A stretch of 64,000 nucleotides of DNA from Stakelama saccharophila (GTDB lineage Bacteria > Pseudomonadota > Alphaproteobacteria > Sphingomonadales > Sphingomonadaceae). Within the stretch, counting starts at the first letter, position 1, and every line of letters starts with the position of its first letter. The stretch is taken from contig NZ_CP135076.1 of NCBI RefSeq assembly GCF_032229225.1, forward strand, positions 1,593,001 through 1,657,000. Direction: 5' to 3'. Shown in pieces: positions 27,552 to 59,140 of this stretch. Both the position numbers and the translations under genes were made by a program. The notes beneath the pieces are model-generated. The model made no database searches. It worked only from the letters and a program-made list of their open reading frames with translations, and was not told the DNA's origin.

Positions 27552-28468
27552 GTCTCCTCCCTGCGAGACGACACCCGGTACTGCGCCATCGCCGCGAGCA
27601 GGATCATCACGAACAGCACCTGCGCGGCGGCCGAGGCATAGCCCAGCTCCCATTGCCGCCAGCCGGTTTCGTAGATGAACAGTACGATCGGCCGCGTCGC
27701 GTTGTTGGGACCGCCCAGCGTCATCAGTTGCGGCTGTCCGAAGAGCTGGAACTGCAGGATGATCTCGATAATCAACACGAGCATGAAGGTGCGCCGGATC
27801 GCCGGCAGCGTGATCCTGGTCAGCGTCGTCCAGCGCGAGGCGTTGTCGAGCGCGGCCGCTTCGTACAGGTCACGCGGCACCTGTTGCAGGGCGGCGAGGA
27901 ACAGGACCATCGGCAGACCGATGCACCACCAGATGGTGGTGATCGCGATCGCCGGCATGGCGAGCGTTTCGTCGTTGAGGAACGCGACCGGCGTGCCGCC
28001 CAGCGCCTTCGTCACCACCGCGAGCAGGCCGCCATCGGGCAGGAAGACCAGCCGCCAGACCAAGGTAACCACCGTCACCGACAAGACCGTCGAGGCGAAG
28101 AAGATCGTCCGCAGCACCGCCGCCCAGCGCGTCTGCCGGTTGAGCACGAGCGCCAGCGCCAGCCCGATCGCGGCGAGGGCGGGCACGGTCAGCAGGACGA
28201 AGTAAAAGGTATTCCACACCGTTTCGAGGAAGATCGGATCGCGGAACAGGCGGATGAAATTGGCCAGGCCGACCCAGCGGTCGGTGCCGAACAGGTCGCC
28301 TTTCGTCGTCGACAGCCAGATGCCCCAGCCGAGCGGGATGACCAGCATGATCGCGAACACGGTGAGATACGGCACCACGAACAGCAGATTGCCCCAGGTC
28401 GCCGCCTGCCGCCGCTTTGGCGGTTCGGCCGGGATCGGCGCGGTGGGTTCGGAAAAGGCCGTCGCCAT
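27548..28468 (-). CDS. ABC sugar importer permease (MalF type)
   Basis: 306 residues from ATG 28466-28468, one base overlapping the ATPase stop (TGATG). Six membrane helices follow a Pro-rich cytoplasmic head (MATAFSEPTAPIPAEPPKRR). The EAA loop is RDLYEAAALDNASRWTTLTRITLP. Partner of the MalG-type permease downstream. Confidence 0.92.
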   Translation of the reverse strand: MATAFSEPTAPIPAEPPKRRQAATWGNLLFVVPYLTVFAIMLVIPLGWGIWLSTTKGDLFGTDRWVGLANFIRLFRDPIFLETVWNTFYFVLLTVPALAAIGLALALVLNRQTRWAAVLRTIFFASTVLSVTVVTLVWRLVFLPDGGLLAVVTKALGGTPVAFLNDETLAMPAIAITTIWWCIGLPMVLFLAALQQVPRDLYEAAALDNASRWTTLTRITLPAIRRTFMLVLIIEIILQFQLFGQPQLMTLGGPNNATRPIVLFIYETGWRQWELGYASAAAQVLFVMILLAAMAQYRVSSRREET

Positions 28469-29577
28469 CAGCCGGCCCCTTCCGGGTGGTGACCGAGGCC
28501 ATGCGCATCGAACAGGTGCGCGGCGTCGGTGTCGAGCGACACGCCGACCACATCGCCGACGCGAATGGACGAGACGCCTGCATCCTCGGCGACCAGTGTT
28601 TCGCCGTCGGACAGCGTCACGTGAACCAGCGTCCGTTCGCCGAGCCGTTCGACAACCGCGGCCTTGCCTTGCATCACCGCCCGCTCCATCGGCACCGGCC
28701 GCACGCATTCGGGCCGGATGCCGAGATTCATGTTGTCTGCATTGTCGAGGCTTTCGGCCGCGATCTTCGTCACGACGCGCGTTCCGTCGCCCAGCCGCAC
28801 GATCGCGTGGCCCGCCTCGGCATCGTCCATCGCGGCGGGCAGCAGGTTGATGCGCGGCGAACCGACAAAGGTCGCGACGAACTGCGTGCGCGGGCGAAGA
28901 TAGATTTCCATCGGCGTGCCGACCTGTTCGATCCCGCCGCCGTTCAGGATGACGATGCGGTCGGCGAGCGTCATCGCCTCCACCTGGTCGTGGGTGACGA
29001 AGATCATCGTCGCGCCCAGCCGTTGGTGGAGCTGCGCGATTTCCAGCCGCGTGCGGTTCCTGAGCGCGGCGTCGAGGTTCGACAGCGGCTCGTCGAGCAG
29101 GAACAATGCCGGTTCCTTGACGATCGCGCGGGCGATGGCGACGCGCTGCCGCTGACCGCCGGAAAGCTGTCCGGGCTTGCGGTCGAGAAGCGCAGATATC
29201 TCCAGGCTCTCGGCCGCCGCTTCGGCCCGGCGGGTGATCTCCGCCTTGTCGACGCCGGCGTTGCGCAGGCCGAACGCCATGTTCTCGCGCACCGTCATGT
29301 GCGGGTAGAGCGCATAATGCTGGAACACCATCGCCACGCCGCGTTTGCCGGGCGGCAGATGGTCCACACGGGCATCGCCGATATGGATCGCACCCGAATC
29401 AACCGTCTCCAGCCCCGCGATCATGCGCAGCAATGTCGATTTTCCGCAGCCCGACGGACCCAGGAACACGACGAACTCGCCGGGCGCGATCTCCAACGAC
29501 AGCCGGTCGACCACTCGCAGCGATCCGTAGCTCTTGCTGACCTGCGCCAGGGTTACGCCCGACAAGCCATCCTCCAC
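28468..29577 (-). CDS. ABC sugar importer ATPase (UgpC/MalK family)
   Basis: 369 residues. Walker A GPSGCGKST (40-48), Q-loop FQHYALYP, signature LSGGQ (138-142), Walker B LFLLDEP (158-164) and switch His in FVTHDQVEAMTLADR. The C-terminal regulatory TOBE domain runs from about 235. It powers import by the two permeases. First gene of a six-gene minus-strand operon: ATPase, two permeases, binding protein, GH51, GntR regulator. A TTTGTCTGAGTAGT motif lies about 10 bp upstream of the start. Confidence 0.95.
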   Translation of the reverse strand: MEDGLSGVTLAQVSKSYGSLRVVDRLSLEIAPGEFVVFLGPSGCGKSTLLRMIAGLETVDSGAIHIGDARVDHLPPGKRGVAMVFQHYALYPHMTVRENMAFGLRNAGVDKAEITRRAEAAAESLEISALLDRKPGQLSGGQRQRVAIARAIVKEPALFLLDEPLSNLDAALRNRTRLEIAQLHQRLGATMIFVTHDQVEAMTLADRIVILNGGGIEQVGTPMEIYLRPRTQFVATFVGSPRINLLPAAMDDAEAGHAIVRLGDGTRVVTKIAAESLDNADNMNLGIRPECVRPVPMERAVMQGKAAVVERLGERTLVHVTLSDGETLVAEDAGVSSIRVGDVVGVSLDTDAAHLFDAHGLGHHPEGAG

Positions 29578-29742: not shown

Positions 29743-31242
29743 ATGGCCGAGCGCGTGCGCGTGACGATCGTCGGCGGCGGGACGGCGGGTTGGATGGCCG
29801 CGGCGGCCCTGGCGGCGCTGTTGCCGCGCAAATGCGCCGTCACGCTGATCGAATCGGAAGCGATCGGCATCATCGGCGTGGGCGAGGCGACGCTGCCGCA
29901 TCTCAAGGCGTTCAACGACCGGCTCGGCTTCAACGAGGCGGCGTTCATGGCGGCGACGCGCGCGACCTATAAGCTGGGGATCGAATTTCGCGACTGGGCG
30001 CGCATCGGCGACAGCTACATTCACCCCTTCGGCGCGTTCGGCAACGATATCGGCGGCGTTGGTTTCCACCACTATTGGCACCGCGCACGTGCGGCCGGAC
30101 AGGCGGAGGACCTGGACGCCTATTCGCTGCCGGTGGTCGCGGCGCGCATGGCGCGCTTCACGCCGGCCGACACCATCGCCCGGGCGCCACACGGGTTCAG
30201 CCATGCCTATCAGTTCGATTCGACGCTGTACGCGCCCTATCTGCGCCGCTTCGCCGAGGCGCGCGGCGTGGAACGCATAGAAGGCAAAGTGGTGGACGTG
30301 GCCCGCCACGGCGAAAGCGGCGATATTCGCGCCGTGACGCTGGAGGACGGCCGGTCTTTCGAGGGCGACCTGTTCCTCGACTGCTCCGGTTTTCGCGCGC
30401 TGCTGATCGACGGCGTGCTGGAAGAACCGTTCGAGGACTGGTCGCGCTGGTTGCCATGCGACCGTGCGGCGGCGGTGCCGTGCGCAGTACAGGCGGGGCC
30501 GCTTCTGCCCTATACGAGCGCGATCGCGATGCCGTCGGGCTGGCGGTGGCGCATTCCGCTGCAGCACCGGGTCGGCAACGGCTATGTCTATGCTTCCGGC
30601 CATTGTTCGGATGACGAAGCGGTGGCGGCGATCCTGGGCGCGATCGAGGGCGAGCCGATCGCTGAACCGCGCATCCTGCGCTTTCGCGCCGGTCGGCGAC
30701 GGCGCGGCTGGGTGAACAATTGTGTGAGCGTGGGCCTTTCGGGCGGCTTTTTGGAACCGCTCGAATCGACGAGCATTTATCTGGTCCAGCTTTGCGTGCA
30801 GACGCTGATCGAGCTGTTTCCGCAGGACGGCGTCGCCGCGATCGACCGCGACGAGTTCAACCGGGTGCTCGATCTGGAATATGACCGGATTCGCGACTTT
30901 CTGATCCTGCATTATCACGCGACGCAGCGGAGCGATTCGGCATTCTGGGAACGGATGCGGACGCTCGATATTCCCGACAGCCTGGCGGAAAAGATAGAGT
31001 TGTACCGTCGCCGCGGGCGCGTGGCGCAATATGGTCGCGGACTGTTCCTCGAACCGAGCTGGATTGCCGTTTATGCGGGGCAGCGGATCGTCCCCGACGG
31101 CTTCGACCAGCGGGCCGGGGCGGGGTCGATCGAAGCGGTGGCGAAGGGGATGGAGGCGTTCCGCCGGCGCACGGCCGAAGTCGCCGCGGGGATGCCGGGC
31201 CATGTCGACTATATGATGCGAACCGGCGCGATGGCGGCATGA
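29743..31242 (+). CDS. Flavin-dependent tryptophan-halogenase family protein 1
   Basis: 499 residues from ATG 29743, strong ribosome site (GGAAGGAGAGGGAG). All marks of active flavin halogenases are present: FAD motif GGGTAGW (11-17), GVGEATLP, catalytic Lys77 in TYKLGIEF, WxWxIP as WRWRIP (267-272), and Glu341 in EPLESTSIY. The family uses FADH2, O2 and halide to make hypohalous acid that is passed to the lysine. The substrate in carbohydrate loci of this kind is unknown; free tryptophan is unlikely to be the only one. First of three genes with 4-base overlaps, next to arabinose importer genes. Free FADH2 would come from a reductase elsewhere. Confidence 0.88.
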   Translation: MAERVRVTIVGGGTAGWMAAAALAALLPRKCAVTLIESEAIGIIGVGEATLPHLKAFNDRLGFNEAAFMAATRATYKLGIEFRDWARIGDSYIHPFGAFGNDIGGVGFHHYWHRARAAGQAEDLDAYSLPVVAARMARFTPADTIARAPHGFSHAYQFDSTLYAPYLRRFAEARGVERIEGKVVDVARHGESGDIRAVTLEDGRSFEGDLFLDCSGFRALLIDGVLEEPFEDWSRWLPCDRAAAVPCAVQAGPLLPYTSAIAMPSGWRWRIPLQHRVGNGYVYASGHCSDDEAVAAILGAIEGEPIAEPRILRFRAGRRRRGWVNNCVSVGLSGGFLEPLESTSIYLVQLCVQTLIELFPQDGVAAIDRDEFNRVLDLEYDRIRDFLILHYHATQRSDSAFWERMRTLDIPDSLAEKIELYRRRGRVAQYGRGLFLEPSWIAVYAGQRIVPDGFDQRAGAGSIEAVAKGMEAFRRRTAEVAAGMPGHVDYMMRTGAMAA

Positions 31243-32717
31243 CGGCGCGGCCGATCACGCGGATCGCCATCGCCGGCGGCGGGGTGGCGGCCTGGGCGGC
31301 GGCGCTCGCCTTTGCCCGGCGGCTGCCCGGAACGCAGGTGACGGTGGTGCCGACGGATGATGCGCCGTGCGGGATGGCGGACCGGTTCGGCACGATGCAG
31401 GTATCGGCGCGAGACTTCCATCTGCGCGCCGGGATCGACGAGCGCAAGCTGCTCGCGACATGCGGGGGCGCCTTTCGCCTCGGCACGCGCTTCGACGGCT
31501 GGATGCGCATGGGCGGACATTTCGTCCGGCCGATCGGCGGCCATGGCCGGTCCGTCAGCGGCGTGCCCTTCCATCAGGCGTGGATCGCGGCGGCGCACCG
31601 CGGTGCGGCACCGGCGTTCGATCGCTTTTCTCCCGCCGCCGCCCTGATCTCTGCTGGACGGTTTCGACCGCCGGCGGTGGACGCACGGTCGCCGTTCTGG
31701 GGCTTCGACGTTGCGATCGCGGTGGATCCGGCCGCCTATCGCGAGGTGCTGAGACAGGCGGCGCTTGCGGCGAACGTCGCGACCGCGTCGCGCCTGTGCG
31801 GCGTGTCGGCGACGGGCGAGCGGGTGACGGGCCTGCACGGAGTGGACGGCGAAACGATCGACGCCGATCTGTACGTCGATGCAAGCGGGTCGGCGGCGGC
31901 GCTGCTGTCGAGCCTGGAGGGAGGCGATGCGCGCCGCGACTGGTCGCACTGGCTGCCGAACGACCGGGTTCAGGTGACGCGCGAGCGATCGGGACCCGAG
32001 CTGATACCGGCGGACATCGTCATGGCGGAGCGGGTCGGCTGGCGCCTGACAAGTGATTTGCCGGCGGGGCGCACCATCGCACGCGTTTATTCCTCCCGGC
32101 GGCTGAAGGACGAGACGGTCGCGCGCGCCCTCGGCGACGCAGCCGAGCGGCTGGAAATCCGGCCGGGCCGGCGCGCGGCTGCCTGGATCGGCAATTGTGT
32201 CGCGATCGGTGATGCGGCGGTCGAATGCGAGCCGCTGGAGGCGCCGCATTGCCATCTGATCCATGCGGCGATCGATCGTATTCTGAACCTGTTGCCCGAC
32301 ACGGAGTTCGCGCCGCTGGAACTTGCCCGCTATAACCGCGAATGGGGCGAGGAGGCGGACCGGCTGCGCGACTTCCTGATCCTGCATCATGCCGTTTCAG
32401 GCCGGAACGACCCCTGTTGGAAGCGGCTGCGCGACGTCGAGCTGCCGGACGAACTGAATTACGCGCTGGCGCTGTTCCGCGAACGCGGGCGATTGCCGTT
32501 GCGCAACTTCGGAAGTTTCGGTCCGGAGGCCTGGTATGCGGTGCTGCTGGGGGCGTCCGTGTTGCCGCGCCATGCCGACGCGCTTGCCGATAACCTTACG
32601 GCGCAGCAGTTCGCGTCCTTCGCCGACACCTTCCTCGGCGCGATGGCGACGGAGCTGAACGCCGCTCCGCGCCACGATACCGTCCTGGCGCGGCTGCGCA
32701 GCGCGCGGGCAGCATGA
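31239..32717 (+). CDS. Degenerate tryptophan-halogenase-like flavoprotein
   Basis: 492 residues, same fold and length as its neighbours and overlapping both by 4 bases (ATGA). Key sites have changed: the catalytic Lys is Arg80 (AFRLGTRFDGW), the WxWxIP motif is WRLTSDLP (268-275), and EPLESTS is EPLEAPHCH (331-339, Glu334 kept). The FAD loop is AGGGVAAW rather than GGGTAGW. Domains such as DLYVDASGSAAALL and the C-terminal DFLILHHAVSGRND still align. It is not expected to halogenate by the known mechanism. It may be a subunit or regulator of its neighbours, or a different flavoenzyme. The frame is intact, so selection keeps it. Confidence 0.8.
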   Translation: MTARPITRIAIAGGGVAAWAAALAFARRLPGTQVTVVPTDDAPCGMADRFGTMQVSARDFHLRAGIDERKLLATCGGAFRLGTRFDGWMRMGGHFVRPIGGHGRSVSGVPFHQAWIAAAHRGAAPAFDRFSPAAALISAGRFRPPAVDARSPFWGFDVAIAVDPAAYREVLRQAALAANVATASRLCGVSATGERVTGLHGVDGETIDADLYVDASGSAAALLSSLEGGDARRDWSHWLPNDRVQVTRERSGPELIPADIVMAERVGWRLTSDLPAGRTIARVYSSRRLKDETVARALGDAAERLEIRPGRRAAAWIGNCVAIGDAAVECEPLEAPHCHLIHAAIDRILNLLPDTEFAPLELARYNREWGEEADRLRDFLILHHAVSGRNDPCWKRLRDVELPDELNYALALFRERGRLPLRNFGSFGPEAWYAVLLGASVLPRHADALADNLTAQQFASFADTFLGAMATELNAAPRHDTVLARLRSARAA

Positions 32718-34231
32718 ACGGCGGCGCGGACCAGCGGCTGCGCGACGTCGTGATTGTCGGCGGCGGGACGGCGGGATGGATGGCGGCCGCCGCCTATGGC
32801 CGGTTCCTCAACAACGGCCATACGCGCGTCACGCTCATTGAATCCGACGCGATCGGAACCGTTGGCGTGGGCGAGGCGACGATCCCGACCATTCTGGGCT
32901 TCAACCAGATGCTGGGCATCGACGAAGCGGCGTTCCTGCGGGCGACGGGCGGAACGTTCAAGCTGGGCATCGAATTCAGCGACTGGGGGGCGGTCGGCGA
33001 CCGCTATCTGCATCCGTTCAGCAGTTACGGCCAGCCGCTTCAGGGCGTGCAGTTCCACCATATCCGCGAAAAGCTGGCGCGGCTCGGCAGGGCCGGGCCG
33101 CTGGAGGAATATTCGCTTTGTGCCGCGGCGGCGGCGCGGGGTCGCTTCGCGCACCGCGCTGGCGATTCGCGCTCGCCCTTTTCGCGCCCGGTTTACGCCT
33201 ATCATTTCGATGCCGGCCACTATGCCAGATTCCTGCGCGACTATGCAGAGCGGCTGGGCGTGCAGCGTATCGAGGGGCGGATCGAGGAGGTCGAGCAGGA
33301 CGGGCAGAGCGGATTCGTCACCGCCGTGCGGCTTTCGGACGACCGGCGTGTCGCGGGCGACCTGTTTCTGGACTGTTCGGGGTTTCGCGCGCTGCTGCTG
33401 GGGCGAACGCTGGGTGTCGGGTTCGAGGATTGGAGCCATTGGCTGCCATGCAACCGCGCTGTCGCGGTGCCCAGCGAAGCCACCGCGCGGCCGCGGCCTT
33501 ATACCCAGGCTTTCGCCCGCCCGGCGGGGTGGCAATGGCGCATTCCGCTGCAGCATCGCACTGGCAATGGCCATGTCTATTGCGATGCGTACATGACGCC
33601 GGACGAGGCAGAAGCGACATTGCTCGAGACCCTGGAGACAAAGGCGACGGCGCCGCCGCGCCATCTTGCCTTCACCGCGGGACGGCGCGAGCGCTTCTGG
33701 GAGAAGAACGTCGTCGCCATCGGCTTGTCGAGCGGTTTTCTGGAGCCGCTGGAATCGACCAGCATCCATCTGATCCAGACCGGTATTTCCAAGCTGATGG
33801 CGCTGATGCCGGACCGCCGCTTCGCCGCGATCGAGCGCGATACCTACAACCGGCTGATGCGCCGAACGGTCGACGGCGTGCGCGACTTCATCATCCTGCA
33901 TTATGCCGCGACCCAGCGGGACGACACGCCGTTCTGGAACCGGTTGCGGACCATGGAGCTGCCGGACAGCCTGGCCGAGAAGATCGCGCTGTTCCGCGAC
34001 AAGGGGCGTTTCTTCCGCTATGACGACGAACTGTTCGACCTGTCCAACTGGGTGGCGGTGATGGTGGGCCAGAACTGGACTCCGCAGGGATACGACCCCA
34101 TCACCGACGCGCTGGACGAGGACCGGCTGGCGGCGGCGCTGGAGCAGATGCGCCGCATCATTCGGGACAATGCCGCACAGATGCCGCTGCACGGCGACTA
34201 TGTACGCGATTTCTGCGCCGCGGGGCGATGA
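32714..34231 (+). CDS. Flavin-dependent tryptophan-halogenase family protein 2
   Basis: 505 residues. Start ATG 32714 overlaps the preceding stop. GGGTAGW (16-22), Lys83 in TFKLGIEF, WQWRIP (273-278) and Glu347 in EPLESTSIH are all present, so it should be catalytically competent. It resembles the halogenase at 57623 more than the first gene of this trio does (shared GFLEPLEST, WQWRIPLQHRTG and similar flanks). Third gene of the unit; GH67 follows after 94 bp with its own putative operator. Confidence 0.88.
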   Translation: MNGGADQRLRDVVIVGGGTAGWMAAAAYGRFLNNGHTRVTLIESDAIGTVGVGEATIPTILGFNQMLGIDEAAFLRATGGTFKLGIEFSDWGAVGDRYLHPFSSYGQPLQGVQFHHIREKLARLGRAGPLEEYSLCAAAAARGRFAHRAGDSRSPFSRPVYAYHFDAGHYARFLRDYAERLGVQRIEGRIEEVEQDGQSGFVTAVRLSDDRRVAGDLFLDCSGFRALLLGRTLGVGFEDWSHWLPCNRAVAVPSEATARPRPYTQAFARPAGWQWRIPLQHRTGNGHVYCDAYMTPDEAEATLLETLETKATAPPRHLAFTAGRRERFWEKNVVAIGLSSGFLEPLESTSIHLIQTGISKLMALMPDRRFAAIERDTYNRLMRRTVDGVRDFIILHYAATQRDDTPFWNRLRTMELPDSLAEKIALFRDKGRFFRYDDELFDLSNWVAVMVGQNWTPQGYDPITDALDEDRLAAALEQMRRIIRDNAAQMPLHGDYVRDFCAAGR

Positions 34232-34325: not shown

Positions 34326-36476
34326 ATGCGGATGCTGCGCGGAATGTGCCTTTGGCTGCTGGCGGCGATGGTGCTGGCGCCGGTGGCCCGAGCCGAGGAC
34401 GGATACCGGCTCTGGCTGCGCTATGACGCACTGAGCGCGCAGCGGGCGGGTGCGGTTGCGCAGCGCGCCGCGAGCATCACCGGGCCGGACCGCCCCTCTG
34501 CGGTGGTCGCATCGGCGATCAGCGAGCTTCAGCGCGGGCTGGGCGGAATGCTGGCGCGCGAAATCCCGGCGGGGACGCAAATTTCCGCCGGAACGGTGAT
34601 TCTCGCCAACCCATCGGTGCAGGCGCGCCTCGGCATCGACCTGCCGCTTTCCGACCTGGGAGCCGAAGGATATCTGCTGCGCAGCATGACGCTGGACGGA
34701 AAACCCGTCACCGTGGTCGCGGCGAATGGCGATGCCGGCCTTCTATACGGTGCCTTCGCGCTTCTCGAACATATCCAGCGCGGACTTCCGATCGACGAAA
34801 TGAACATGCGATCGGCGCCGAAGCTGCAACTTCGCGTGCTCGACCATTGGGATAATCTCGACGGGTCGGTGGAGCGCGGCTATGCCGGGCAGTCGATCTG
34901 GAACTGGTGGACGCTGCCCGAGCATGTCGATCCGCGGCTGGTCGATTACGCCCGCGCCAACGCTTCGATCGGCATCAACGGTGCGGTACTCAACAACGTC
35001 AATGCCAGCGCACTGAGCCTGACGCCACGCTACATCGCAAAGGCGGCGGCGATCGCGGACACCCTGCGCCCCTGGGGGATGAAGGTCTATCTGTCGGCGC
35101 GCTTTTCCGCGCCGATCGAGCTGGGCGGGCTCGACACCGCTGACCCGCTCGACCCGGAGGTGGCCGCCTGGTGGAAGGCGAAGGCGGACGAGATCTACGC
35201 AAGCATCCCCGATTTCGGCGGGTTCCTGGTGAAGGCGAATTCCGAAGGGCAGCCGGGGCCGCAGGATTATCACCGCAGCCATGCCGAGGGTGCGAACATG
35301 CTGGCAGCGGCGGTGGCACCGCATGGCGGCATCGTGATGTGGCGCGCCTTCGTCTATTCGGCCGAGGACGCGACCGACCGGGCGAAACAGGCCTATGCCG
35401 AGTTCAAGCCGCTGGACGGCACGTTCGCGGACAATGTGCTGTTGCAGGTGAAGAACGGGCCGATCGATTTCCAGCCGCGAGAGCCGTTCCACCCGCTGTT
35501 CGGCGCGATGCCGGAAACGCCGCTGATGATGGAATTCCAGATCACCAAGGAATATCTGGGGCAGGCCACGCACCTCGTCTATCTCGGTCCGTTATGGGAA
35601 GAGGTGCTGGAGGCGGACACCCGCCGGCACGGTGAGGGGGCGACCGTCGCCAAGGTGATCGAGGGGCGGTACGGCGCACACAAGCTGACCGGCATGGCCG
35701 GCGTCGCCAATATCGGCGACGATCGCGATTGGACGGGATCGACGTTTAACCAGGCCAACTGGTTCGCGTTCGGCCGGATGGCCTGGAACCCGCAAAGCTC
35801 GGCGCGCAACATCGCGGTCGAATGGGCGGAACTGACTTTCGGCCCGCGCGACGACGTGACGCGCACCGTGCTCGACATGATGATGACCTCGCGCGAGGCG
35901 GTGGTGAACTATATGACGCCGCTGGGTCTGGCGCACCAGATGGCGACGGGGCATCATTACGGACCGGGACCGTGGGTCAGCGATCTCGGCCGGCCGGAAT
36001 GGAATCCGGCTTATTACAACCGCGCGGATAAAGACGGCATCGGCTTCGACCGCACGGCGAGCGGCAGCAACGCGATCGCACAATATGCGCCGCCGGTCGC
36101 GAAAGAGTTCGGCGATCTCGCCGCCGTGCCCGACCGGGACCTGCTATGGTTTCACCATCTGGCCTGGGACTACCGGATGCGATCGGGCGAGACGCTGTGG
36201 CAATCGCTGCTCGATCATTATCAGACCGGTGTCGAACAGGTGCAGGCGATGGAGCGGCAGTGGCAGTCGCTGAAGGGCGACATCGACCCGCGCCGCTTCG
36301 CCAAGACGGCCGATTTCCTGCGCATTCAGGAAAAGGAAGCGAAATGGTGGCGCGACGCCTCGGTGCTGTATTGGGAAAGCGTGTCGGGCAAGCGGGCGCC
36401 GGAAGGATATCCGGAACCGGCGCATGATCTGGACTATTACAAGGCGCTGCGCTTTCCCAACGCGCCGGGGCATTAG
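34326..36476 (+). CDS. GH67 alpha-glucuronidase, exported
   Basis: 716 residues with signal MRMLRGMCLWLLAAMVLAPVARA; ribosome site GGGAGAGG. The GH67 hallmark DHWDNLDGSVERGYAGQSIW is followed by GFLVKANSEGQPGP (acid/base Glu) and the catalytic carboxylate region FKPLDG...NVLLQVKNGPIDFQPREP. The C-terminal helical domain includes WVSDLGRPEWNPAYYNRAD. It removes 4-O-methyl-glucuronic acid from the non-reducing end of xylo-oligosaccharides, needed to finish glucuronoxylan breakdown. The signal peptide places it in the periplasm, whereas many GH67 enzymes are cytoplasmic. Confidence 0.93.
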   Translation: MRMLRGMCLWLLAAMVLAPVARAEDGYRLWLRYDALSAQRAGAVAQRAASITGPDRPSAVVASAISELQRGLGGMLAREIPAGTQISAGTVILANPSVQARLGIDLPLSDLGAEGYLLRSMTLDGKPVTVVAANGDAGLLYGAFALLEHIQRGLPIDEMNMRSAPKLQLRVLDHWDNLDGSVERGYAGQSIWNWWTLPEHVDPRLVDYARANASIGINGAVLNNVNASALSLTPRYIAKAAAIADTLRPWGMKVYLSARFSAPIELGGLDTADPLDPEVAAWWKAKADEIYASIPDFGGFLVKANSEGQPGPQDYHRSHAEGANMLAAAVAPHGGIVMWRAFVYSAEDATDRAKQAYAEFKPLDGTFADNVLLQVKNGPIDFQPREPFHPLFGAMPETPLMMEFQITKEYLGQATHLVYLGPLWEEVLEADTRRHGEGATVAKVIEGRYGAHKLTGMAGVANIGDDRDWTGSTFNQANWFAFGRMAWNPQSSARNIAVEWAELTFGPRDDVTRTVLDMMMTSREAVVNYMTPLGLAHQMATGHHYGPGPWVSDLGRPEWNPAYYNRADKDGIGFDRTASGSNAIAQYAPPVAKEFGDLAAVPDRDLLWFHHLAWDYRMRSGETLWQSLLDHYQTGVEQVQAMERQWQSLKGDIDPRRFAKTADFLRIQEKEAKWWRDASVLYWESVSGKRAPEGYPEPAHDLDYYKALRFPNAPGH

Positions 36477-54759: not shown

Positions 54760-55788
54760 GTGTTTGCCGATGTGATAGCGCCAACGGATCGTCGTGTCAT
54801 CGAGCGCGAAGCGGTCGACGCGCATGAGTTTGCCGAGGGGATCGCAACCCGGTCGGCGCCGGTGGTGCTGCGCGGACAGGTTGCCGCCTGGCCGGCGGTC
54901 GCGGCGGGAAGGGGTGGCCACCGTGCGCTTGCGGACTATGTCGCCCGTTTTGCCGGGGGAGCGCCGGCGGAGACCCTGGTCGGGCCGCCGGAGATCGGCG
55001 GGCGTTTCTTCTATCGCGACGACATGCGGGGGCTCAATTTCAAGCGGGAGCAAATTCCCCTGCGGCGCCTGATGGTCGAATTGCTGCGCATCGCCGATCA
55101 GTCCGCCCCTCCCGCACTCTATGCCAATGCCGCCACCGCCGACGAGCATCTGCCGGGTTGGGCGGAGGAAAACCGACTGGCATTCGATCCCGGCGGCCCC
55201 GCGCGGCTGTGGGTAGGCAATGCCACCCAGGTCGCGACGCATTACGACCGGTCGCCCAATATAGCGTGTGTGGTCGCGGGCAAGCGCCGGTTCACGCTGT
55301 TCCCCCCGGATCAGATCGCGAATCTCTATATCGGGCCGATCGACCGCACGATTGCGGGACCGCCGGCCAGCATGGTCGATCCGGACGCACCGGATCTGAC
55401 CCGTTATCCCCGTTTTTCCGACGCCTTGAAACATGCGCAGGTGGCGGAGCTGGAGCCGGGCGACGCGCTCTTCATTCCGTCGCTGTGGTGGCATCATGTG
55501 CGTGCGTTCGGCGCGATCAACGTGCTGGTGAACTATTGGCGCGACGATGCCGAACTGCCGTCTCCCTTCGTCGCGCTGGTCCACGCCATGATGAGCGTGC
55601 GTGACCTGCCACATGCGGAGAAAACGGCGTGGCGTAGCTGGTTCGATCATTATGTCTTCGGCGCCAATGCCGATCGCGCGGCCGACCATCTGCCCGATTT
55701 CATCCGCGGGGTGCTCGGCCCGCCGAGCGCGGAGCGGACGAAGCAGCTTCGCGCCTATGTCATGGGGTCGCTGCACCAGGAGGGCTGA
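54760..55788 (+). CDS. Cupin-like (JmjC-type) oxygenase domain protein
   Basis: 342 residues from GTG 54760, with no clear ribosome site. A cupin_8/JmjC-like fold is indicated by VVLRGQVAAWPAV at the N-terminus, the metal-ligand pattern HYDRSPNIACVVAGKRRFTLFPP (His-x-Asp) and GDALFIPSLWWHHVRA (distal His). Such proteins are 2-oxoglutarate/Fe(II) hydroxylases or their relatives. In sphingomonads and Caulobacter they often occur with tryptophan-halogenase-like genes beside TonB receptors, as here. No substrate can be named. The gene points toward the GH9 gene, convergent, with a 20-bp gap. Confidence 0.75.
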   Translation: MFADVIAPTDRRVIEREAVDAHEFAEGIATRSAPVVLRGQVAAWPAVAAGRGGHRALADYVARFAGGAPAETLVGPPEIGGRFFYRDDMRGLNFKREQIPLRRLMVELLRIADQSAPPALYANAATADEHLPGWAEENRLAFDPGGPARLWVGNATQVATHYDRSPNIACVVAGKRRFTLFPPDQIANLYIGPIDRTIAGPPASMVDPDAPDLTRYPRFSDALKHAQVAELEPGDALFIPSLWWHHVRAFGAINVLVNYWRDDAELPSPFVALVHAMMSVRDLPHAEKTAWRSWFDHYVFGANADRAADHLPDFIRGVLGPPSAERTKQLRAYVMGSLHQEG

Positions 55789-55808: not shown

Positions 55809-57626
55809 CTATTCTCCTGCCGACGGCGTGAGATAGGATGCGATCCAGAGCAGTGGCGCATTCCAGTTGATCGCGACTTCGTTCATGGTGAACGCGCGTG
55901 GATCATCGCGCCAGCAGCGCATCGGCGCACACGTGCCGCGCATCGTTTCGGCCACCGGATCGCCCATGCTGGTGGAATTGGGGCCGCCCGAGAGCACGCC
56001 GGGCGGCGGCGGTGGAAGATCGGCGTCCAGCGAATGCGCCCAGAACCGGTGATGCGGCCGCTCCATCGGCCGGGTGCCGAACCCGCTGACATAAGACTGG
56101 TCGAGGGGGTTGCGGCCGAGGATGTAGTCCATCGCGTCGATCACGCCGGCCCGATATTTTTCGTCGCCGGTAAAGTCCGCCGCCAGTGCCAGCATCAGCG
56201 CACGGTTGAGGATGGTCGAGTTCGACCCCCAGGGATAGCGCAGCGTGGCATAAGGGATGTGGTAGCCGGATTGCGCTTCGTCCGCGAGAAAGCGGTCGGC
56301 TGCCGCGATGATGCGGGTTTGCGCGGCCTCGGCTCGCCTGGCGCTCGCCGTGTCGCCGTTCAGGGCCAGCGTGATCGCGCCCAGCGCCGCCACGTCGCCC
56401 CAGCTCGGCGCGTCGAGGGACGCCGCTGCCGCATCGAGGCGATCGAGCACCTTCGCGTAGGCTGGCTCGCCCGTCGTGGCATAGAGTTCCGCTGCCGCCC
56501 AGTAGAATTCGTCGTCGAGATGCCGGTCGCCATAGCTGCCGCTGCCCGTGAAGCTTTCCGGCGCATATATGTCTGGATGCCGCAAGGCGGCGGCGAAGGC
56601 GCGCCGCGCGGCGGCGAGGCAGCGATCGGCGAAATCGGGATCCGTCTTGCGCCGGATGCGGGCGCATTGCGCAGCGGTCGCCGCGAGGTTGAGCGTGGCT
56701 GCGGTGCTGACCGGATAGAGCGCGCGGGGCTGATCGTCCCGGGCGGGAGGGGTGGGGAGCGGAGTCCATTGCCGGTCCGCAACCTTGTGGTGGACCATCC
56801 CGCCGGCATCGATGGTGCGCAGGCGCAGAGGCCCCGCATCCGGCTGATCGACCGTCGGCACCGTCGCGGCCTCGCCCTCCGGTATCTGCATCGACAGCAG
56901 AAAGGCCATTTCCCACCGGGCCTCGTCCAGCAGATCGTTTGCCCCGTTGCCGGCCTCGGGCAGGCGGGCGGTGCCGTCCGCAAACGGTGGCGCCTCGCCG
57001 GATGCGCGAGCGCGTTCATAGAGGTTCTGGAGCGTCCAGAGTGTGATGCCGCCGTTCACGACATATTTGCCCTGGTCGCCGGCGTCGTACCATCCGCCGG
57101 TCACGTCCAGGCGGTAATCGCATCCCGGCCAGTCGGTGCCGCGTTGATCGGTGCCGGCGAAGCAGGAGACGACTTCGTGCGGATGCCCGGCCGGCCGCGC
57201 CCATTTCGCTCCGCCGGCATAGCGCGCCTCGATGGGGATGCCGGCGCGCGTCTGGTAGAAATAGTTGAGCGCGGCGCCGGCGAGCGGGGAATAGGGATCG
57301 CGGGTGACGGCAAAGGACTGGGGTGCGTGGCCTTCGACCTCCAGCCGGTAGCGTCCGACAGGCAAGACCCGGTCGAGCGCGATCAAATGGACATGGTCGC
57401 CCGAAGCGGCGTCGGCGCGGCCGGACATGCTTTTCCCGCGTGCGGCGACACTGCCGTCCTTTGCGCGGACGGTCCAGGCGAGCGGTCGATCGGCCGGATC
57501 GGCGACGATGATCCGCTTCGGCCCGTCCGGGATGAAGCCGAGCTGGTTCAGATGCACGTCGGGCGCGGCGGCCGCGCCCGGTGATGCGGCGGCCAGGGTC
57601 AGGGCGACTGCCGAAAACAGGGTCAT
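55809..57626 (-). CDS. GH9 endoglucanase-like hydrolase, exported
   Basis: 605 residues from ATG 57624-57626, which overlaps the halogenase stop as ATGA; TTG 57635 is an alternative with a closer GGAGG. Signal about 1-20 (AAASPGAAAA). An Ig-like CelD N-domain (about 22-110, VHLNQLGFIPDGPKRIIVAD) precedes the GH9 barrel. Asp181 and Asp184 lie in GGWYDAGDQGKYVVNG, and the acid Glu583 in NEVAINWNAPLLW. GH9 members attack beta-1,4-glucans, including glucomannan or xyloglucan backbones. It is co-transcribed with a halogenase gene, an unusual pairing. Confidence 0.9.
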   Translation of the reverse strand: MTLFSAVALTLAAASPGAAAAPDVHLNQLGFIPDGPKRIIVADPADRPLAWTVRAKDGSVAARGKSMSGRADAASGDHVHLIALDRVLPVGRYRLEVEGHAPQSFAVTRDPYSPLAGAALNYFYQTRAGIPIEARYAGGAKWARPAGHPHEVVSCFAGTDQRGTDWPGCDYRLDVTGGWYDAGDQGKYVVNGGITLWTLQNLYERARASGEAPPFADGTARLPEAGNGANDLLDEARWEMAFLLSMQIPEGEAATVPTVDQPDAGPLRLRTIDAGGMVHHKVADRQWTPLPTPPARDDQPRALYPVSTAATLNLAATAAQCARIRRKTDPDFADRCLAAARRAFAAALRHPDIYAPESFTGSGSYGDRHLDDEFYWAAAELYATTGEPAYAKVLDRLDAAAASLDAPSWGDVAALGAITLALNGDTASARRAEAAQTRIIAAADRFLADEAQSGYHIPYATLRYPWGSNSTILNRALMLALAADFTGDEKYRAGVIDAMDYILGRNPLDQSYVSGFGTRPMERPHHRFWAHSLDADLPPPPPGVLSGGPNSTSMGDPVAETMRGTCAPMRCWRDDPRAFTMNEVAINWNAPLLWIASYLTPSAGE

Positions 57627-59140
57627 GGCGTGCAATGCTCCTCCAGATAGCGACGATGATCGGGCATATGGCCCAGACAGATGTCGATGGTGCTTCGGAT
57701 GTGCGCGAGGCGGTTGCGCGTCTCTTCGATCGTCAGGACGTTGGCCATGGGATCGTATCCCGTCGCGGCGACATCCTGTCCCTGCAGCAGGGCGAACCAG
57801 CTCGTCGCGTTGAAGAGTTCGTCGTCGTCGCGAAAGGTCCGGCCGCGGTCCCGGAAAAGGGCGATCTTCTCGCTCACGCTATGCGGAACGTCCATGGCGC
57901 GGCACCGGCGCCAGAATTCCGAATCTGTGCGATCGGTGACGTGATAGTGGCAGATCAGGAAGTCGCGCACCTGTTCGTAGTCGCGCGCCATCAGCCGATT
58001 GTACCGGTCCGCGACGGCGGGATCGAAGCGCTTGTCGGGGAACAGGTTGAGCAACCTGGCCAGTCCGCTCTGGATCAGCCAGATGCCGGTCGATTCGAGC
58101 GGCTCCAAAAACCCGGAGGCAAGGCCCAGGGCGACGCAATTGCCGATCCAGAAGCGATCGCGCCGGCCGGTGCGGAAGGAAAGGGTGCGCGGCGCAGCGA
58201 GCGCCGTGCCGTCGAGGCCGTCCAGCAACATGGCCGTCGCTTCGTCCTCGCTCATGTGATCGCTGCAGAACACATGGCCGTGGCCGGTTCGGTGCTGCAA
58301 CGGGATGCGCCATTGCCAGCCGGCCGGCCGCGCGGTGGCTCGGGTAAGGCTGGGTAGGATCTTCGTTGCTTCCGTCGGCACGGTGACGGCCCGATCGCAC
58401 GGCAACCACCGCGACCAGTCGATATGGTTCGCGCCGAGTGCCTGCTGGATCAGCAGCCCGCGAAATCCGGAGCAATCGATGAAGAAGTCGCCGGCTACCC
58501 GGCTGCCGTCATCGAGGACGACCGACTCGATATGACCGCTTCCGCCGTCACGCACGGCGTCGACGATCCGTCCTTCACGCCGCACGAGACCATGTCGCTC
58601 CGCGAACCGCCGCAGAAAAGCGGCATAGCGTCCTGCCTCGAAATGATAGGCGTAGGTGATCTGCGACAGTGGGGAATTACCATTGTCGATCGGGTGCATG
58701 AAACGGCCCTGCCGGCCGGCGCGCGCCTGCAGCGAATAGGCATCCAGCGGATCGGCTTCGCCTGCAAGGTGCAACCGCTGCCAGAACGCCGAAAAGGAGA
58801 CGCCATGCATGTCGGTCCCGTAGCGGCCGAACGCATGGACATAGTGAGCGCCGATCCGGGCCCAGTCGCGGAACTCGATCCCCAGCTTGAAGCTGCCGCC
58901 GGTCGCGTCGAGGAACGCGTTCTCATCGATACCCAGCATGCGGTGGAACGTTACGATGGGAGGAATCGTGGCCTCGCCAACGCCGACAGTGCCGATCGCA
59001 TCCGATTCGATCAGCGTGACGGAAATACCGGCCGGTCCCAGCAGACGGCTCAGGCACGCACCGGCCATCCAGCCGGCCGTGCCGCCGCCGACGATTACGA
59101 TATGGCGGATACGGTTGGGGTCGTCGGCTTCGTGCGACAT
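57623..59140 (-). CDS. Flavin-dependent tryptophan-halogenase family protein 3
   Basis: 505 residues. Intact motifs: GGGTAGW (18-24), Lys85 in SFKLGIEF, WQWRIP (275-280), Glu349 in EPLESTGIW. It should be able to form and deliver hypohalous acid. Its stop overlaps the start of the GH9 gene, so the two are translated together. A LacI-type site 58 bp upstream links it to xylan regulation, and a TonB receptor is divergent. Substrate unknown. Confidence 0.88.
   Translation of the reverse strand: MSHEADDPNRIRHIVIVGGGTAGWMAGACLSRLLGPAGISVTLIESDAIGTVGVGEATIPPIVTFHRMLGIDENAFLDATGGSFKLGIEFRDWARIGAHYVHAFGRYGTDMHGVSFSAFWQRLHLAGEADPLDAYSLQARAGRQGRFMHPIDNGNSPLSQITYAYHFEAGRYAAFLRRFAERHGLVRREGRIVDAVRDGGSGHIESVVLDDGSRVAGDFFIDCSGFRGLLIQQALGANHIDWSRWLPCDRAVTVPTEATKILPSLTRATARPAGWQWRIPLQHRTGHGHVFCSDHMSEDEATAMLLDGLDGTALAAPRTLSFRTGRRDRFWIGNCVALGLASGFLEPLESTGIWLIQSGLARLLNLFPDKRFDPAVADRYNRLMARDYEQVRDFLICHYHVTDRTDSEFWRRCRAMDVPHSVSEKIALFRDRGRTFRDDDELFNATSWFALLQGQDVAATGYDPMANVLTIEETRNRLAHIRSTIDICLGHMPDHRRYLEEHCTP

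Follow-up and report, generated by a model that had tools for sequence, protein, structure and literature searches.

Why would a halogenase-like gene that has lost the lysine, the flavin adenine dinucleotide (FAD) loop and the WxWxIP motif of its family be kept open and full length between two genes that retain them? The question is raised by a three-gene array of Stakelama saccharophila, located in the 64,000-nucleotide stretch analyzed here (assembly GCF_032229225.1, contig NZ_CP135076.1, positions 1,593,001 to 1,657,000 of the forward strand; hereafter the window, with coordinates counted from its first letter). A sequence-only reading of this DNA had described three overlapping halogenase-family genes, the middle one full length and stripped of catalytic residues, and had suggested a multi-subunit flavoprotein or a new reaction. 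We found that the middle gene belongs to a single clade of degenerate proteins, termed D, whose members directly follow genes of one clade of active-type halogenases, termed A, and that D is under purifying selection. We consider it moderately probable that D is an old pseudoenzyme without halogenating activity, and that it works with the halogenase A, probably bound to it, as a non-catalytic subunit.

The genes H1 (29743..31242, 499 aa), H2 (31239..32717, 492 aa) and H3 (32714..34231, 505 aa) lie on the plus strand, and all three reading frames are open. Their products match almost the full length of the model for the flavin-dependent halogenase family PF04820 (606, 294 and 630 bits, respectively; cut-off 21), and neighboring genes overlap by ATGA on that strand (31239..31242 for the H1 stop and H2 start; 32714..32717 for the H2 stop and H3 start), which bears out the arrangement first read from the sequence. 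H1 carries Lys77, WRWRIP, EPLESTS and GVGEATLP, and H3 carries Lys83, WQWRIP, EPLESTS and GVGEATIP; with GxGxxG, the FAD loop, Lys, WxWxIP and PLEST all present, both are classed by motif set as putatively active flavin-dependent halogenases, H1 as a member of clade A and H3 as a variable third gene. The lysines, WxWxIP and PLEST glutamates of the outer genes had been read correctly. H1 and H3 share 51% identity, and H2 is 31.5% identical to H1 and 31.6% to H3. The genome encodes six PF04820 homologues, four of them inside the window, and H2 is the only degenerate one of those four.

In H2, DRFGTMQV replaces the FAD loop GVGE(A/S)TIP (31380..31403), and the Glu of the FAD sensor is gone. A structure study describes this loop and a conserved Glu as the FAD sensor (PMC7336383). 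Also on the plus strand, Arg80 replaces the halogenase Lys (31476..31478), WRLTSDLP replaces WxWRIPL (32040..32063), and EPLEAPHCH replaces EPLESTS (32229..32255). GxGxxG is incomplete as well: the sequence is GGGVAAW, with the final Gly changed to Ala. The description of H2 as stripped of catalytic residues therefore holds for the Lys, the FAD loop and WxWxIP; the Glu (E334) is retained and only the Ser/Thr after it is lost. An AlphaFold2 model of H2, built from an alignment with 63 other D proteins, reached a predicted local distance difference test (pLDDT) of 96.4 and a predicted template modeling score of 0.94. Among solved halogenases, it superimposed on 9luq with a Z score of 52.3 (1.9 Å, 472 residues) and on 6frl, the halogenase BrvH, with a Z score of 51.9 (1.8 Å, 476 residues). 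A complete halogenase fold is thus predicted over the whole length of H2, and the protein is full length as claimed, with 492 residues and near-whole coverage of the PF04820 model.

To place H2 in its family, loci were collected with H2-derived patterns (L010-L089, the best 80 of 100) and with profile- or position-derived criteria, and halogenase frames were called by hidden Markov model. A frame of at least 300 residues with GVGE missing at the FAD loop was defined as degenerate, so that the loss of GVGE in D is true by definition; moreover, the pattern-derived loci and those chosen for a one-gene gap between two halogenases (L156-L164) favor D by selection. Of the frames in 101 loci, 53 were degenerate, and all of them fell in one clade (LG model, 265 rows, support 99). 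D was also one clade in a FastTree analysis (123 D rows of 451, support 99) and under a site-mixture model (20/20 sampled D in 55 rows, support 100/98). The careful tree took in only D proteins longer than 440 aa and lacked six of the longest branches of the clade, though two long D branches stayed. Members of the clade occur in Sphingomonadaceae, Sphingosinicellaceae, Caulobacteraceae, Hyphomonadaceae, Parvularculaceae and Micropepsaceae. Some genes, seen in two loci, count twice among the 123 rows; a set of 114 rows contained one duplicate and so gave 113 distinct D genes, among them two cut by the stretch edge (L030, L034), and 111 D genes formed the selection set. The genes upstream of D were also coherent, with 51 of them in one clade of 53 (support 100), which we named A; in the 55-row tree the A rows form a group only if the gene of L025, an A-clade gene without D, is included (91/98). 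When other PF04820 genes were used as outgroup, D branched before the split between A and the other halogenases (100/98; 88/85 for that split). An origin of D as a recent copy of A is hence unsupported, a conclusion held loosely, as long branches could mimic this order.

In the 101 loci, 51/53 D genes come immediately after an active halogenase of the same orientation, and in the larger set 109/111 follow an A gene (107 assigned by script, those of L237 and L238 by reading the gene order). Two D genes had no readable upstream gene, one at a contig end (L018) and one at a stretch edge (L034). The reverse search, with a profile of A genes (A2) against 397 genomes of the family, returned 71 places in 65 genomes at an E value of 1e-229 or better; at most three candidates were scored per genome, and this threshold may miss divergent A genes. 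In 68 of the 71 places the gene belongs to the A clade, and in every one of these 68 the next gene is D (67 read by script and one, L194 of genome G136, by eye), so that no A-clade gene without an open D was seen in the family survey. The remaining three (second places in G010, G243 and G153) lie outside the A clade and are later genes of arrays that start with A-D. Since the A2 profile was built from genes preceding D, divergent A genes without D could score lower and be missed. Among 385 genomes of the class, seven had A-level matches (at least 775 bits), and D was present in 7/7. In a second family, 11/82 genomes matched: A-D occurred in four (G626, G721, G904 and G905), one sequence (L199) ends 291 bases after A, and six matches lie outside the A clade. 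The middle gene, which might have been absent or broken in relatives, was thus open in 68/68 cases.

The third gene behaved differently. It is polyphyletic, with 10 label changes on the tree; in L153-L155 and loci like them it lies on the other strand in convergent orientation; and it is missing in L037 and within the covered stretch of L214 and L235. The trio as a conserved unit is ruled out by these observations. The co-occurrence expected for all three genes therefore holds for D with its upstream A and not for the trio: the conserved unit is the A-D pair, in which D is constantly linked to one active paralogue. At the A-D junctions a 4-base overlap was found in 94/107 cases, of which 77 are ATGA. 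Across 41 loci, D distances correlate with those of A (r 0.88) and of the third gene, C (r 0.85); after controlling for C, the partial correlation of D with A is 0.54, and after controlling for A, that of D with C is 0.37. Distances and overlaps fit joint inheritance, and at most hint at contact. As a side observation, a halogenase downstream of A-D is split over two frames in L020 (9433-11013) and L230 (9530-11033), by sequencing error or by a true break.

To learn which residues D has given up, its members were compared with active forms. Among the non-degenerate homologues in the 101 loci, 211 were at least 440 aa long and had every motif window aligned, and all of these keep GxGxxG, Lys, Glu and W-x-W/F-x-I. 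The clade in the same slot as H2 is degenerate throughout; the degeneracy of H2 is thus beyond chance. Among the 113 distinct D genes the Lys is present in 9, with Arg in its place in 51; WxWxIP is present in 3, and 13 lack the segment that would contain it; the Glu is present in 11, and Lys and Glu occur together in none. GxGxxG is intact in 51 (52/114 rows), and 4 have Glu at the FAD-sensor position (5/114 rows). Of 75 residues universal in active forms (80 columns minus five gap columns), 27 are kept by less than 30% of D, including the FAD loop (48-51), Lys80, W270, I272, E334 and several residues of the HRxGNG stretch that follows WxWxIP. At the other end, 18 of the 75 stay in at least 70% of D and are mostly core Gly, Pro, Trp, Asp and Asn; D retains Asp214/Gly217 and Trp316-Asn319-Gly324, which belong to the flavoprotein core. 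D also has consensus residues of its own, unlike those of active forms, such as His61 and Gly318. This selective pattern indicates that the loss is centered on the cofactor and halide machinery.

D is at least 440 aa long in 108/123 rows. Short forms of 335-378 aa without the WxWxIP segment occur in apparently independent lineages, in loci from Caulobacter and the sphingomonad family (L012, L014, L017, L019, L020, L177, L180, L182, L183, L185 and L207), and constitute a natural deletion series. For the short D of L014 (378 aa), a fold was predicted with a pLDDT of 85.4, from which the WxWxIP segment and the pocket sheet are gone. A separate PF04820 subclass, with GVGEGTWP and either WIWDIGL or WTWDIGL, was seen in Sphingopyxis, Lysobacter and Alteromonadales (L048, L054, L056, L057, L059, L064, L067, L071-L077, L079, L080, L082, L085, L086 and L088); most of these loci also hold genes for TonB receptors, LacI regulators, glycoside hydrolases (GH) of family GH3 or transporters of the major facilitator superfamily (MFS).

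Selection on D was estimated from the ratio of nonsynonymous to synonymous substitutions (dN/dS), calculated by NG86 without correction for codon bias, which makes the absolute values rough. In 24 independent locus pairs D had a median of 0.22 (0.08-0.43) and A one of 0.12, and in the 85 usable of 87 pairs D stayed at or below 0.50, with a median of 0.25. The nearest D is 42% identical to H2, too distant for synonymous counts, and the estimate therefore covers the clade and not H2 itself. D is under purifying selection, and the relaxed selection that would have spoken against a function was not seen, with dN/dS well below 1. Recent decay of H2 is ruled out by the clade dN/dS together with the predicted fold.

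A single clade, fixed adjacency, a conserved overlap, purifying selection, a predicted fold and selective loss of catalytic and cofactor residues are the observations from which we propose that D works with A. In the proposed mechanism, A would carry the whole flavin-dependent halogenase machinery and perform the flavin-dependent chemistry, and D would be its catalytically dead paralogue, with an intact overall fold and without the FAD-capture loop, the active-site Lys or WxWxIP. The two would be translated in tandem from the overlapping start. D would then bind A, probably through the face used in halogenase homodimers, and either stabilize A or aid recognition of a substrate other than free tryptophan; H3 may be a further active halogenase of the kind often added to the array. 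The binding face is suggested by analogy, as the crystallographic dimer of tryptophan halogenases may offer a ready surface for an A-D heterodimer. Xcc4156 of Xanthomonas campestris shows the same crystallographic dimer (PMC7336383).

Several points weigh against this proposal. The same source notes that Xcc4156 may be monomeric in solution, so that the dimer face cannot be assumed for A-D. Two A-clade genes lack D, one in an alphaproteobacterial metagenome-assembled genome (L024) and one in Brevundimonas sp. A19_0 (L025), and A can thus exist alone. The 4-base overlap is also found at 36/52 D-to-C and 36/48 active-to-active junctions; other tandem halogenases in these arrays overlap too, and the overlap is not special to the A-D pair. 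The ATGA overlap as lone proof of a complex is ruled out by these control junctions. D exceeds A in dN/dS in 21/24 pairs, evolving about twice as fast, and 63 D proteins are only 25-41% identical to H2; with D so fast and variable, any interface shared with A must tolerate much change. Natural A-D fusions, which would have spoken for contact, were absent from the 267 halogenase frames of the 101-locus set.

The array sits in a large polysaccharide-utilization region of the window, with genes for GH67, GH10, two GH3, GH9, GH127, two arabinofuranosidase-type enzymes, LacI and GntR regulators, two IlvD-type dehydratases, MFS transporters and two TonB-dependent receptors. A GH67 alpha-glucuronidase gene follows H3 on the same plus strand after 94 bp (34326..36476), and H1 is divergent from a gene for an ATP-binding cassette (ABC) ATPase with a TOBE_2 domain (28468..29577, minus strand), the first gene of an opposite ABC importer operon. 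The fourth halogenase of the window, H4 (57623..59140, minus strand), lies between GH9 and a TonB-dependent receptor, outside clade A and with no D beside it. A Cupin_8 (JmjC-type) gene lies 22 kb from the array (54760-55788, plus strand), and elsewhere in the genome two more modules (C1 389475-393825 and 732868-736068) hold SapC, Cupin_8 and halogenase genes in a row. Among 85 D loci of at least 11 kb, a TonB receptor similar to the two of the window lies within 7 kb in 56, a lower bound as many stretches are short; any of the GH families of the window is present in 35; and Cupin_8-like genes are present in 46. A fixed TonB receptor partner was rejected as universal on this count, the array of the window adjoining an ABC importer instead. 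In one recurrent layout A-D faces a Cupin_8-like gene of the opposite strand that is no more than about 330 bp from D, and in the stretches covered that opposite strand carries further halogenases (L153-L155, L206, L208, L210-L212, L217-L219, L221, L223, L225, L226, L229-L231, L234 and L239).

Could D instead act by itself? It might have evolved its own new chemistry, or bind its own ligand, within the pathway of A, with neither halogenation nor a complex, and purifying selection, consensus residues such as His61 and Gly318 and a pocket region kept in most members would all suit such a role. We regard it as rather unlikely, because no catalytic residue set is common to D, only three positions (two Gly, one Pro) are invariant in 64 aligned members, and members that lack the WxWxIP segment still occupy the same slot though the pocket sheet is gone. 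For the same reason the new reaction once suggested for the array finds no support as far as D is concerned: the loss of the FAD loop across the clade and the deletions of the WxWxIP segment argue against catalysis by D. Dead enzymes often turn into sensors, and the TonB receptors and glycoside hydrolases of many D loci would agree with a stand-alone sensor or regulator that binds a small molecule of the pathway and signals to transport or transcription. The neighbors change, however, from TonB-dependent receptor to ABC importer or MFS transporter, and to amino-acid and acyl-CoA genes in L235, whereas A stays, which makes a sensor distinctly improbable.

A flavin enzyme with altered FAD binding, such as a flavin shuttle or a peroxyflavin donor for A, would account for the retained Asp214/Gly217 and Trp316-Asn319-Gly324 and for GxGxxG in nearly half of the D genes; with the sensor Glu so rare, and with neither the FAD loop nor a third Gly in GxGxxG present in H2, we judge it very unlikely. 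Least credible of all is a D that travels with the operon as a duplicate in decay. Its faster evolution than A, lost catalytic positions and shortened forms are what decay would produce, but dN/dS was at most 0.50 in all usable pairs, every A in the family survey has an open D, and the clade extends over several families; because the D genes were collected as open frames, a broken copy beyond the survey would have escaped notice. The non-catalytic partner of A is thus retained as our preferred reading. In its boldest form, A and D would be obligate partners in a heteromeric flavin enzyme. It would be the first halogenase in which a dead subunit serves regulation or substrate binding, and together with the Cupin_8 proteins that often adjoin the pair it would modify a protein or glycoconjugate of TonB-dependent uptake, with the fast-evolving D setting the specificity. 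The frequency of Cupin_8 in D loci, the SapC/Cupin_8 modules and the open substrate site of Xcc4156 lead to a protein or glycoconjugate as substrate; we hold this extended version to be rather unlikely.

How does the pair compare with known systems? Pairs of enzyme and pseudoenzyme, in which a dead paralogue is kept beside an active one, are a familiar general concept. PrnA, RebH, Thal and PyrH, from which the motif roles were established, are single active tryptophan halogenases of natural-product clusters; the model of H2 has their fold, and H2 lacks their Lys, FAD loop and WxWxIP. QhpG and LodB show weak profile similarity to H1 and H3, far below the family cut-offs, and the only such match of H2 was GoxB (19 bits against a cut-off of 400). 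QhpG, LodB and GoxB are flavoproteins that modify partner proteins, and relatives by fold can thus act on proteins. Within the same PF04820 group, BrvH (PDB 6frl, Brevundimonas BAL3) is one of the two closest solved folds to the H2 model; according to the accessible part of its description it likewise adjoins a second halogenase gene, FHal gene 13, and differs from H2 in that the conserved Lys and FAD motif are present, and that part makes no mention of a degenerate partner (PMC5945002). BrvH acts on indole derivatives, with bromination preferred, and Xcc4156 (PDB 6y1w) of the same group, which has the FAD loop and sensor Glu57 that H2 lacks, has an open substrate site for which larger substrates, possibly peptides, are suggested (PMC7336383 for both enzymes). 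The PF04820 enzymes, BrvH, Xcc4156 and the halogenase gene adjoining BrvH were thus known already. Our literature search, which left most subscription papers outside its reach and so leaves novelty unproven, returned no description of a conserved degenerate partner of a flavin-dependent halogenase, and no paper in the searched literature contained both 'pseudoenzyme' and 'halogenase'.

Materials for an experimental test exist in nature: the A + D pair, the A genes without D (L024 and L025) and the deletion series of D. The two lone A genes (in L025, 8001-9506) carry WQFRIPL, and they may have lost D or represent a state before pairing. Many PF04820 halogenases in the sampled loci adjoin sugar-uptake genes. 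If it is true that clade A halogenases are made with a dead paralogue, assays of that subunit without its partner may fail to reveal the real reaction, and if the heteromer reading holds, enzymes of this group that were tested alone, with BrvH and Xcc4156 as possible cases, may have lacked a needed partner.

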